Positions 671 through 57,275 of a stretch of DNA of 64,000 nucleotides are shown here, piece after piece. The position numbers and the translations under genes were made by a program. The stretch spans positions 1 to 64,000 of the forward strand of contig JAAYPC010000262.1 of NCBI GenBank assembly GCA_012519985.1, written 5' to 3'. Position 1 is the first letter of the stretch. Each line of letters opens with the position of its first letter. Source of the stretch: Fibrobacter sp. Lineage in GTDB: Bacteria > Fibrobacterota > Chitinivibrionia > Chitinivibrionales > Chitinispirillaceae. The notes beneath the pieces were generated by a model. That model did no database searches. It was given only the letters and a program-made list of their open reading frames with translations, and had not been told where the DNA came from.

Positions 671-3154
671 TCAACCGAGACGAAATTTATCTGTATTAAA
701 ATTCATTCTGCGTGCGAAATTAACCAGTTTAAGAAACAGATCCCTGGTTTCGCCGTCATCTTTTTTTTGAGCACCAAGCATCATTAATTTATCATACAAC
801 TGCTGTACCTTGGTTTTGAGAACCGGATGAAACATGTCTTCAAGCTTATGCTTGGAAACTGGAATGCTGAACCGGTCTACAAGATTAAGCAAATAACGGA
901 TCCGGTCACATTTTTCAACAGATAAGTTTTCCTGCAGAGCCTCAAGCTCATCCACAAGGATTTTTTCCAACACTTCTGCACCGCTACTGAGATCGATACT
1001 GACCTGAAAACGGTTCATCGTTCTGAACATCTCCAGAAGCTCAGAAAAGAGCTGATCCTCAAACCCAGGTGTAGCCACCTTCTTTATAGTGCTGTCCCAT
1101 TGATCCTGAAACACAAAAGAAAGGGGGGCAGTGCAATAGGACGGAAGAGGCTGATTAAGCCTGGAGAGAATATCCAACTCCCTTAGATGCTTATTTCGCC
1201 AGACACCAAATCTCTGATTGGTGTCTTTGGAGATTCTATGAAGAAAGTGACTGGTTATCTGCTGCTGCGAAGTCTGAAATATATCTGTCAGACTGAAAAC
1301 CTTGGCCCTCTTGTGACCCATCCAGGCTTCAGGCTGCTCTATAAATCCCTGCTCAAACTCATCACCAGGAATTATCCACCCGGTAATATCGGAATTTTTC
1401 CGCAATGCAACCAGAACAGCCCAAGTCCCCTCCTCTCCCGATAACTCATTCTCCAACTGTACCAGATACCCGCTAAATGCAGGAGAGTCGTTCTGAGAGG
1501 TCAGAACCTGCTGAAGTTTAACAGAGTATTCGTAAATATCAAATGAAGACAGTCTCTGTATTCCCAGGGTTTTAAGGATAGATGCAGTAAATGCCAGAAT
1601 CATCTGGTGATCTAAAAATGTCATTATATGCTGTTCGATCAGGGTACGTCCATTAATATTGGGCAGATTGCTTTTGGCACTCTCAAGATCTTTGAGAAAA
1701 TCATCCAAAATCTGGCTGCGCTTTGATTCTGGAGTACCCAATTGTAATGCCCTGCATGCATAAGCCAGATTCTGCACGGTTTCAATCCCACTTATATCTG
1801 AGAAAAACCATCCGCAGGAAGTAAATGAAAAAAGAGAATATTTCTGTGCCTCCAGCAACCGTTTGAAACTCAAAACCATCTGCCGATCAAGCGAACCGAT
1901 ACCGCACTGCTTCTCCAGAAACCATCTGAACTTTTTCCAGGAGCAGTTTTCAAAAGCAATATACCTGTCCCGTACCATCCATGGATCCACATTGAATTTG
2001 GAAAAAGCCAGCTCATATTCGGCATCGATTTTTTTCTGTAATTTTTCCAGAGCACTTCTTAATGGGGCACGCCACATCTGTTTCCAGGAACTATCACCAC
2101 CAGTCTTGCACCCACAATCCCTGGCCCAACGCCCAACCCCATGCGCACAGCTCCAGGCAGTCCCCTCCCCATTTGCATTTTTCAGAATAACTTCATAGCG
2201 TGGAGGATTTTTGGCCAGAAAATAACCAAAATTCACTGGAACGATATCCAGCTCAGGTGCCACATTCTTGAAAAAGTAAGCCAGACACATATCTCCAAAC
2301 GGTTTGTGATGGCCAAACGTTTCTCCATCTGTGGCAATTGTAACCAACTGATCGGTCTGGGAATTTTCTGCAAAACAGGACCTGATCCGATTCCCCAGAA
2401 TGTGAGCATCTGTAAGAAGCTGACCAAAACTTATTTCTCTGGATAACCCATCATCAAAAAAGAATGCATCCAGATAGGCTTTAGGATCTCGTTCCTTTGT
2501 ATAAATCCTGTATGCCATTCTGGTATCTATTATCTGCTGTGCCGTAGAAGTCCATTGGCCGTCGCTACCCATGGCTCTGAAACTCTCAACCTGGCTAGGT
2601 GCAAGTATGACAAACTTAATCTTTTCTTCTATAAGGCACTGAATCGTAACCGCATTTATTGCAGTCTCACCCAGCCAAATCCCTTCAGGATCTCTTCCGA
2701 AACGGTTCCTGAAGAATATTTTAGCCCAGCGGATCTGAGTCAACTGGTCACGCTTAGAAGAAAGCGGCATTATTATATGATTATAAACCTGAGCGATAGC
2801 ATTGCCATGCCCCTCAAGTCTTGCACAACTCTCCTGATCATCCCTGATAATCCGATTGGCGGTTGCCGGGTGATGTTTTTCCAGCCAGGAAAAAAGTGTA
2901 GGGCCAAAATTAAAGCTCATGTTGAGATAATTATTGTAAATATCCACAATCATCCCGTTGCCATCCAAAAGTCTCGAATAGGCGTTGGGTCTGTAGCATT
3001 GATCGTAGATCCGCTCATTCCAGTCATGATGAGGTGCAGCCGAAGGCTGTTTCTCAATGAGATTTATCCAGGGATTTTCACGGGGAGGTTGGTAAAAATG
3101 GCCATGAATCACCACATATTTTTTGCTTTTTCTGGATTGCTTATTGCCAGTCAT
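671..3154 (-). CDS. Glycoside hydrolase family 57-like protein with DUF3536-type C-terminus
   Basis: YVVIHGHFYQPPRENPW N-terminus and TDGETFGHH motif; start moved to MTGNKQSRK (the ORF track start is further upstream). Confidence 0.8.
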   Translation of the reverse strand: MTGNKQSRKSKKYVVIHGHFYQPPRENPWINLIEKQPSAAPHHDWNERIYDQCYRPNAYSRLLDGNGMIVDIYNNYLNMSFNFGPTLFSWLEKHHPATANRIIRDDQESCARLEGHGNAIAQVYNHIIMPLSSKRDQLTQIRWAKIFFRNRFGRDPEGIWLGETAINAVTIQCLIEEKIKFVILAPSQVESFRAMGSDGQWTSTAQQIIDTRMAYRIYTKERDPKAYLDAFFFDDGLSREISFGQLLTDAHILGNRIRSCFAENSQTDQLVTIATDGETFGHHKPFGDMCLAYFFKNVAPELDIVPVNFGYFLAKNPPRYEVILKNANGEGTAWSCAHGVGRWARDCGCKTGGDSSWKQMWRAPLRSALEKLQKKIDAEYELAFSKFNVDPWMVRDRYIAFENCSWKKFRWFLEKQCGIGSLDRQMVLSFKRLLEAQKYSLFSFTSCGWFFSDISGIETVQNLAYACRALQLGTPESKRSQILDDFLKDLESAKSNLPNINGRTLIEQHIMTFLDHQMILAFTASILKTLGIQRLSSFDIYEYSVKLQQVLTSQNDSPAFSGYLVQLENELSGEEGTWAVLVALRKNSDITGWIIPGDEFEQGFIEQPEAWMGHKRAKVFSLTDIFQTSQQQITSHFLHRISKDTNQRFGVWRNKHLRELDILSRLNQPLPSYCTAPLSFVFQDQWDSTIKKVATPGFEDQLFSELLEMFRTMNRFQVSIDLSSGAEVLEKILVDELEALQENLSVEKCDRIRYLLNLVDRFSIPVSKHKLEDMFHPVLKTKVQQLYDKLMMLGAQKKDDGETRDLFLKLVNFARRMNFNTDKFRLG

Positions 3155-15185: not shown

Positions 15186-15313
15186 TAACTGATTGCCGGA
15201 ACCGAAGTTCAGTACTTTCGATAACGGTGCTTTGAACTTGGACAATCGTACTAAACCTGAATTTTTTCCATTGGATGTCATTCCGAATTCCGAAGCATAT
15301 ATGTGAGGAATCT

Positions 15314-15388
15314 GGTAAGGCATGCGCCCTTTATTGGTTACAGCTAGCCGTTCAGTCAGTAAGTCAGAATGCGAGCTCTTTTGCCTTC
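15314..15388 (+). repeat. Left terminal inverted repeat of a non-coding element
   Basis: GGTAAGGCATGCGCCCTTTATTGGTTACAGCTAGCC...TCAGAATGCGA...TTGCCTTC, matched inverted at 16090-16164. Confidence 0.85.
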
Positions 15389-15674
15389 TAAACTAAGGCA
15401 TCACTTTTTTTCTTCGAATACTTTCGATAGCCATAAAAACATCGGAAAGATTCAACCTCAGTCCGTTTTATAACAGAATTGCGATCTACACCCAAAATGT
15501 CTCTTCCTACTTCAGGCATAATGTGTGTCTTGTCTTATATGTGTTTACAGCAGATTAATAGATGAAGTTTTGTATCCCCTTTTTTAGAGTCAGACGAACT
15601 TTTGGAGTTTCGGTTTGGGGGCTGGCATTTACCTGCCTGGAGAGATAGATTTCAACAAAGAAATCGTCATAATA

Positions 15675-16018
15675 CTCCTAGCATCGTTGTTAAGCACACA
15701 ATGGACTCACCATTGTGCTCCTAGCAACGTTGCTAGGAATATAATGCTCTCACCGTTGTACTCCTAGCACCTTTGCTAGGAATGCTATGCTCTCACCATT
15801 GCACTCCTAGCACCTTTGCCAGGAATACAATGCTCTCTCCATTGTGCTCCTAGCATCTTTGCTAGGAATACAATGCCCTCTCCATTGTGCTCCTAGCATC
15901 TTTGCTAGGAATACAATGCTCTTTCCATAGTACTCCTAGCACCTTTGCTAGGAGTACTATGCTTTTACCATTGTACGCCCGACACCTTTGCTAGGAGTAC
16001 AATGCTCTCTCCATTGCA
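15675..16018. repeat. Tandem array, 8 x 43 bp, plus a degenerate ninth unit at 16019-16061
   Basis: Units such as CTCCTAGCATCTTTGCTAGGAATACAATGCCCTCTCCATTGTG; exactly 43-bp spacing with substitutions only. Confidence 0.95.
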
Positions 16019-16089
16019 TGTTTCAAACGGTTTTCAGGCATACTATACTCTCATCAAGGCCTGGCAAAGAAAAATGCTTTTATAAATTT

Positions 16090-16164
16090 GAAGGCAACGG
16101 ACGTTCGCATTCTGACGTCCAACTGTAGGGCTAGCTGTAACTAATAAAGGGCGCATGCCTTACC
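16090..16164 (-). repeat. Right terminal inverted repeat
   Basis: Reverse complement GGTAAGGCATGCGCCCTTTATTAGTTACAGCTAGCC...; 35/36 identical over the outer part to 15314-15349. Confidence 0.85.
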
Positions 16165-16201
16165 AACCGTCTTTCTAATATCCCACATCTGATATCCGAT
16201 T

Positions 16202-16246
16202 CACAGGGCGTTGCCCTGTGCTGAGCTAGGGCGCCCCTTCAGGGCT
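16202..16246 (-). repeat. 45-bp palindromic intergenic element, copy 2
   Basis: Reverse complement AGCCCTGAAGGGGCGCCCTAGCTCAGCACAGGGCAACGCCCTGTG. Confidence 0.8.
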
Positions 16247-16312: not shown

Positions 16313-16942
16313 CTACAAATCATTGGGAGCATTAGATAGATCGTACCATTTGCGGATAACCCAAAGACTCTTGTCTTTTCTGTCTTTCTCCAATAAGAAG
16401 ACCTGTTTTTCGATAGCTATGGTATATTCGACGGTTTGAATTACCGCTCCGGTTGTACTGAGCTGTATCAGCAGCTCGCCTCCAGTGATCATCATTTCGA
16501 TATAGGCCGAATCTCCATAAGAGCGGGTATTGGTCAGTTCCGGTGCATAACGGAATCGAATCTCCTTATTCTTGCCATCATCGCTGGAAAAAAGCTTCCG
16601 GTGACTCTCCACCTCTTCTGCTTTTGTCCAATAGTAGAATCTGGATCCGGTGGTAAAACTTAACATCGTATCTGCACCCTCAAAGTCGTAGTCATACTTT
16701 GCCTGATAGCTGGAAATGAAAGTGGGGGCAACATAAAATTGAAATGAGTCACTTAAAAGCTCTTCATAAAGATCGATCCGTTTCGATTCGTATGCCTCAA
16801 TTAGCTGCTTGAGCACCCCTTCAGGAGTAGAACGAAGACTGAATGTTTTATCGGGTTTGCCGGTTGGAGGTAAAAAAGGATTCTCACAGGAGAGAAACAT
16901 TCCCACCAGAAACAAACTTATGAAACAGAGAAAAAACCTCAT
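16313..16942 (-). CDS. Lipoprotein, unknown function
   Basis: MRFFLCFISLFLVGMFLSCENPF lipobox; start revised from the ORF track. Confidence 0.65.
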   Translation of the reverse strand: MRFFLCFISLFLVGMFLSCENPFLPPTGKPDKTFSLRSTPEGVLKQLIEAYESKRIDLYEELLSDSFQFYVAPTFISSYQAKYDYDFEGADTMLSFTTGSRFYYWTKAEEVESHRKLFSSDDGKNKEIRFRYAPELTNTRSYGDSAYIEMMITGGELLIQLSTTGAVIQTVEYTIAIEKQVFLLEKDRKDKSLWVIRKWYDLSNAPNDL

Positions 16943-17463
16943 TATTCCGTTCCTATGGGTGCAAAAAAAGAGGGCCTCCCGACTCTGTCCGGTATATCTG
17001 CCCAGAAACATATCTTCCAGGCAGGTTTTCCTTTCAATATAAAATCCGATGAACCATATTCGGTTATAGCACTGTCACTGTTTTTTTGCTTGTAGGTTAT
17101 CTGGTATCTGACTTTGTTGATAAACAGGGAATCACCAACATCCTGGTGATCTGCAGTGGAATCGCTCCAGGTCACCGAAAAGTCATACTTCTGTTCCAGT
17201 AAATTTCGGAAATTGTTGACTAATTGGTTTTTGTTGAATTTCCGTTCCGGCCCTGTATTAAAATCGATATATACCATGCCCATGTCAAAAAGCTCAACCG
17301 GATTGGTGCTTATGAAATGCTCCCCCAGACTGCTTAAGATACCATCGAAATTGTATGGGTCAACAGACTGCCCCTGGGGTTCCTCAAAATCCTCACGAGG
17401 AGAGAATAATCCGCATCCATGAAAAACCACCATGATTAGTAAGATTAAAATCCTTCTCTTCAT
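16942..17463 (-). CDS. Lipoprotein, unknown function
   Basis: MKRRILILLIMVVFHGCGLFSP lipobox; overlaps the next gene. Confidence 0.65.
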   Translation of the reverse strand: MKRRILILLIMVVFHGCGLFSPREDFEEPQGQSVDPYNFDGILSSLGEHFISTNPVELFDMGMVYIDFNTGPERKFNKNQLVNNFRNLLEQKYDFSVTWSDSTADHQDVGDSLFINKVRYQITYKQKNSDSAITEYGSSDFILKGKPAWKICFWADIPDRVGRPSFFAPIGTE

Positions 17464-48151: not shown

Positions 48152-48552
48152 TCTGTTTTCATGATGCCTTTCCTGTTTTCACGATGGCATTTTTCGTTTT
48201 CACGATGGCATTTCCCGTTTTCACGATGGCCTTTCCCGTTTTCAAGATGGCCTTTTCCGTTTTCACGATGGCCTTTTCCGTTTTCACGATGGTCTTTCCC
48301 GTTTTCAAGATGGCCTTTCCCGTTTTCAAGATAGCCTTTCCCGTTTTCAAGATGGCCTTTCCCATTTACACGATGTCTCTTCCCATTTACACGATGTCTC
48401 TTCCCATTTACACGATGTCTCTTCCCATTTACACGATGCCCCTACCCTGTTTACACGATTGCATTTTCCGTTTACGCGATGTCTATTTCCGTTTACACGA
48501 TGTCCCTTCCCATTTACACGACATCCCTTCCCTGTTCACATGATGGCTTTCG
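48152..48552. repeat. Minisatellite, about 19 units of about 21 bp
   Basis: TTTTCACGATGGCCTTTCCCG-type units, then TTTACACGATGTCTCTTCCCA-type units. Confidence 0.92.
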
Positions 48553-56849: not shown

Positions 56850-57275
56850 TCCCGGAAGGCATTCGCAAATTTCCTGTTCTTAAACCCATATTGCCCATTA
56901 GACAGGGACTTAAATTAAGCCCGACCAGGCAAACCTGTTGGTTGCTCCGGTAAGCCCTCAGTGACAGTCAATTCGGTGCGTCCTCGCTCTCCATTACTTT
57001 GACGAGCCCTCGTTATCTGTCACTTCGACGAGCTTGCGAGGAGAAGTCTTTTCAATGGGACAAAAATTATGGGCCCGATCCACTCTGCCAGGTACAAAAC
57101 CGGTTACTGTCTACTGGAAAATTGGGTTAAAAAAGCAACAGTTTTGTTCCTCTTTTTATCATCTTTGCTACAATTTTGTACCCATCAATCATCCTTCATC
57201 TCTTAACATGGATATTGATGCCCTTTTTTTATTCTATTTAGTCTTTTCTACTGAGCTGAAGATTAAATAAAAAAT

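Follow-up and report, generated by a model that had tools for sequence, protein, structure and literature searches.

The window, the whole 64,000-nucleotide stretch of DNA analysed here, belongs to a genome assembled in 367 contigs (G000, the host). Between two convergent genes, coaX (PF03309, 14412-15185, +) and an ORF at 16313-17011 (-) without a Pfam match, it contains a pair of inverted modules of ~76-79 bp which enclose a tandem array. The locus comprises the following features:

15256-15275 (+): left outer terminus, CCTGAATTTTTTCCATTGGA, a degenerate version of the superfamily end CCCAAATTGTCCATTAG, located by left-flank alignment of module-bearing copies
15276-15312 (+): subterminal palindrome-like stub TGTCATTCCG...GTGAGGAATC, common to left-type copies
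15313-15391 (+): left module, L type; the left inverted repeat of the first-pass annotation
15475-16056 (+): array-containing block, 91% shared with contig C8 (L032) and, from 15614 onward, 89% with C233 (L033)
15673-16016 (+): eight tandem 43-bp units (tandem-repeat finding: 8.0 copies, 85% matches)
16087-16165 (-): right module, R type; the right inverted repeat of the first-pass annotation; holds the hairpin GGACGT-CAGAATGCGA-ACGTCC
16166-16181 (+): right-flank remnant ACCGTCTTTCTAATAT, by comparison with the right flanks of L032 and L035; the remaining right outer end is absent here
16202-16246 (+): Acido-Lenti-1 (RF01687), an unrelated adjoining repeat (Rfam match) which occupies the expected site of the lost right end

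Modules, array and predicted fold

The first-pass annotation had described 75-bp inverted repeats with 35/36 identity in their outer part, a 43-bp array between them, a GGACGT..ACGTCC hairpin in the right repeat and a position between convergent genes. All of these are found at the locus, and the first 37 nt of the two arms differ at one position. The coordinates needed a small correction: the pair is present, but its true first base is a T one position further out, which gives arms at 15313-15391 and 16087-16165. An ORF check of the window confirmed that the interval between these arms has no convincing ORF. Over their outer 44 nt (15313-15356 / 16122-16165) the arms are 93% complementary; they share a further exact match of 12 nt (GTCAGAATGCGA), and arm-to-arm identity is 85% over 79 nt. 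The 22-nt arm terminus has two sites in the window, both at the arms, with 0 expected from shuffles.

Each array unit consists of a ~36-bp palindrome and 7 bp. Among module-bearing copies the array occurs in the window and in L032 (C8), which has the right module only; short module copies have no array. On C233 (L033) the array block sits without modules. The sequence variants of the units follow largely the same order across the window, L032 and L033, and the array block was thus copied whole.

As one reading of the locus, a large structured RNA had been proposed by the first-pass annotation. The 853-nt sequence does fold far better than its shuffles (z -30 and -18); however, a strong fold is expected of any inverted repeat plus palindromes. 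Arm identity within one element (77.8%) is no higher than that across elements (78.2%, p=0.82), hence the arms display no co-variation. In the array hairpin, 83% of the cells pair over 24 units and covariation falls below that of shuffles. Furthermore, the module alignment yields no consensus fold and no Rfam family fits the modules: RAGATH-15 reaches 21 bits where 199.5 are required, and this weak match falls on the palindromic array. Since neither the arms nor the array hairpins show excess covariation, and since the modules lack a consensus fold, we rejected the structured RNA as a very improbable explanation; selection on RNA structure is not supported. The modules themselves presumably have no RNA function; instead of an RNA gene, the element is probably a transposition passenger. 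More generally, inverted transposon modules can incidentally produce a strong RNA fold in silico.

Copies in the host and in a related genome

About 100 local matches to the whole element were found in the host genome. The first-pass annotation had suggested looking for further copies, and they exist in two genomes: the module core has about 43 copies in the host (≤2 mismatches) and 26 in G008, a MAG from another genus of the same family, against 0-1 for a reversed-pattern control. G008 alone is positive among the 60 relatives searched, the other 59 having no modules. Modules of the G008 type also lie on two contigs, possibly binned wrongly, of an Ignavibacteria bin from the same assembly. Viral contigs had no exact match to the module or array cores, BLASTN against plasmids and phages found nothing, and a phage, plasmid or viral origin was rejected on these zero matches.

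Ten of the host copies have two ends and measure 233-1635 bp. Their L and R module types are distinct: mean module identity is 87% for L-L and 88% for R-R pairs, against 78% for L-R. Nearly all modules (64/65) are located outside ORFs of at least 130 aa. Where both neighbours are known (n=39), these genes are convergent for 17 modules and divergent for 4. In the interior of the 1635-bp copy (L035 1513-3147) lies part of a metallo-beta-lactamase-fold gene (PF12706), which may be host DNA that was captured. The search for an insertion-free orthologous site at coaX covered 19 relatives with a match to this gene, and in these the downstream region lacks synteny.

In G008 the modules stand alone or as direct repeats, and their surroundings are unlike those of the host; the module may therefore spread by a route of its own. 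At these loci (L105-L123), a second, GC-rich hairpin repeat (CCACACGCCCCC...GCGGGGGTCGTGTGCGCTCGGCGAACATGA) mostly follows the modules, and at least three upstream types precede them. A deletion derivative of an integrase gene, considered from ATGACTGCATTACGTCAGAAT upstream of G008 modules, was discarded as no intact gene was found.

The outer frame and its mobilisation

Conservation runs past the modules, on the left through CCTGAATTTTCCATTAGATGTCATTCCGAACGTATGTGAGGAATC and on the right for ~110 bp, ending in ..CCGTCTAATGGACAATTTGGG. These left and right outer ends are inverted copies of one another, form outer terminal inverted repeats (TIRs) of ~17-21 bp and define a larger MITE superfamily in the host. 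Outer-end sites number 75 in the host at ≤3 mismatches, compared with 7 for a reversed control, and the ends (CCCAAATTNTCCATTAG) are paired in about 20 elements.

Target-site duplications (TSDs) were assessed in flanks collected by hand from TIR pairs, which were selected by their ends and not by their TSD. AT-rich duplications of 5 bp are exact in 8 of the 21 paired elements (TTAAT, TTTAT, ATAAT twice, TTTAA, ATAAA, TTAAT, TTAAA), a number reached by 0 of 20,000 permutations; in several elements the TSD is imperfect or absent. Two copies are particularly informative. L046 combines the module pair with both outer ends and TTAAT/TTAAT, and L128 is a 164-bp outer element in which the left flank runs straight into the right flank, with no modules and the TSD ATAAT. 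Because the frame occurs with modules and a TSD in the former and without modules in the latter, the module pair is a cassette inside the outer frame. The modules as true transposon termini were rejected, since the flanks are conserved beyond them and the TSDs lie further out. The earlier proposal of a MITE-like, mobilised element holds as regards dispersed copies, outer inverted termini, perfect 5-bp TSDs of sister elements and the insert-free L128, but its 75-bp repeats are internal modules and not termini. Likewise, the extent it assigned to the element covers real repeats and a real array, but the conserved unit continues beyond the arms.

The window copy retains its left outer end at 15256, and on the right its likeness to relatives ends at about 16181. 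With its right outer end gone, this copy would be immobile and is probably a worn fossil.

We interpret the locus as the decayed remnant of a composite MITE, a non-autonomous transposable element with an outer frame and a module cassette, a reading to which we assign a probability of about 0.8. The mobile frame would be the outer element with its ~17-21 bp terminal inverted repeats, inserting at AT-rich sites and making a 5-bp duplication. It is presumably moved in trans by a transposase, probably of the cut-and-paste type, acting on the outer ends. The cassette, consisting of two diverged 76-bp modules inverted around a copy-specific spacer, would have spread along with this frame. In two copies, that of the window and that on C8, the spacer carries the block with the 43-bp palindromic array, which was copied as a unit.

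Other members of the superfamily are found in the window and elsewhere. At 56885-57126 the window holds a complete ~242-bp MITE that has the two outer ends and whose duplication, TTAAA/TTAAA, is perfect. Different tandem arrays of ~21-22 bp are associated with the same outer end in L188 (507-880), L197 (1129-1530), L186 and L199. In the outer element L189 (1325-1570), a ~57-bp palindromic insert breaks the module after GGCATGC. The window also has a 17.5-copy tandem array of a 21-bp unit (GTTTTCACGATGGCCTTTCCC) at 48155-48521, for which no link to the outer ends was seen.

Apart from one enclosed Rpn ORF treated below, no transposase candidate with the superfamily ends was found in searches for DDE transposases of the IS1380 type (PF13701), Y1_Tnp and Rpn; the IS1380-type enzyme is absent from the host. 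A collapsed repeat at the contig ends of C16, C90 and C31 was dismissed as parent, with ~125 bp visible and no ORF.

Alternatively, the module could be REP-like and owe its spread to a Y1/HUH (RAYT) transposase, its inverted pairs being BIME-like mosaics. Modules indeed occur solo, inverted and direct and near gene 3′ ends, their ends are weakly self-complementary (AAGGCA/TGCCTT), and the host has four Y1_Tnp matches. However, G008 carries its 26 modules without any Y1_Tnp match, the Y1 loci contain no module, and the module measures ~76 bp instead of 20-40 bp. In addition, the frames around the host copies have 5-bp TSDs, which are unexpected for HUH transposition. Mobilisation by Y1/RAYT is thus unlikely. 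In L130, inverted matches to Acido-Lenti-1 (RF01687) at 1332-1376 (+) and 2178-2222 (-) flank an IS200-like Y1 transposase ORF (1405-1857, -); what Rfam lists as an 'sRNA' may therefore be a Y1 transposon's end repeat and not a gene for an RNA.

A further candidate is an Rpn protein (PF04754, PD-(D/E)XK, Transposase_31) acting on the outer ends, with an element on contig C197 as parent. This 1328-bp element (C197:2915-4242, equivalent to L147 1616-2943) has both outer ends, the TSD TTTAA/TTTAA and, as its main content, an Rpn ORF which is the sole larger gene enclosed by outer ends; a second Rpn copy (C305) retains part of the right end. Yet infrequent IS-like movement has been reported for Rpn genes (PMC5350276), and Rpn proteins are reported as toxin-antitoxin phage defence (PMC10327210). 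Outer ends enclose only one of the 21 host Rpn matches, the C197 reading frame has a stop (that of the C351 Rpn is intact), and its ORF could be a gene capture. One in 21 is too few to call Rpn the transposase, and we regard this parentage as doubtful. If true, it would make Rpn a real transposase that has MITEs of its own.

A new repeat family among known systems

The composite MITE and its relatives constitute a previously undescribed family of gene-less, transposon-like repeats in two related uncultured Fibrobacterota genomes, ordinary in kind and new as a family. It adds an undescribed interspersed-repeat family to Fibrobacterota in which the nesting of frame, cassette and array is unusually clear. 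The two genomes offer material on the spread of 76-bp modules, both within a TIR frame and away from one, and on a possible action of Rpn proteins at inverted ends.

REP/BIME and TIR repeats are linked to RAYT transposases (PMC3733652). What the present family shares with REP/BIME is palindromic units that are interspersed in the genome, singly or as inverted pairs. In contrast to the 20-40 bp palindrome and the Y1 gene in the genome that mark RAYT-linked REP/BIME, the module has 76 bp and G008 lacks Y1_Tnp; moreover, the host has a TSD-bearing frame.

A second comparison is with MITEs such as Nezha, RUP and Correia. Here too, the elements are short, non-coding and intergenic, with terminal inverted repeats, TSDs (in sister elements) and many dispersed copies in one genome. 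Their termini, TSDs and copy number thus place them among MITEs, although our searches found no parent IS. Unlike these MITEs, they enclose as inner cassette an inverted module pair whose modules also occur separately.

By architecture, in a likeness drawn independently of sequence comparison, the closest analogue is the BOX element of Streptococcus pneumoniae and S. suis, in which two different terminal modules surround a variable tandem boxB array (PMC3049150). Both are composite non-coding repeats with many intergenic copies, nested repeat families and no transposase of their own, and in the window, as in BOX, two terminal modules flank a variable tandem array. The differences from BOX are that each array unit is palindromic here, that the array is missing from most copies, and that an outer MITE frame can be seen, with 5-bp TSDs.
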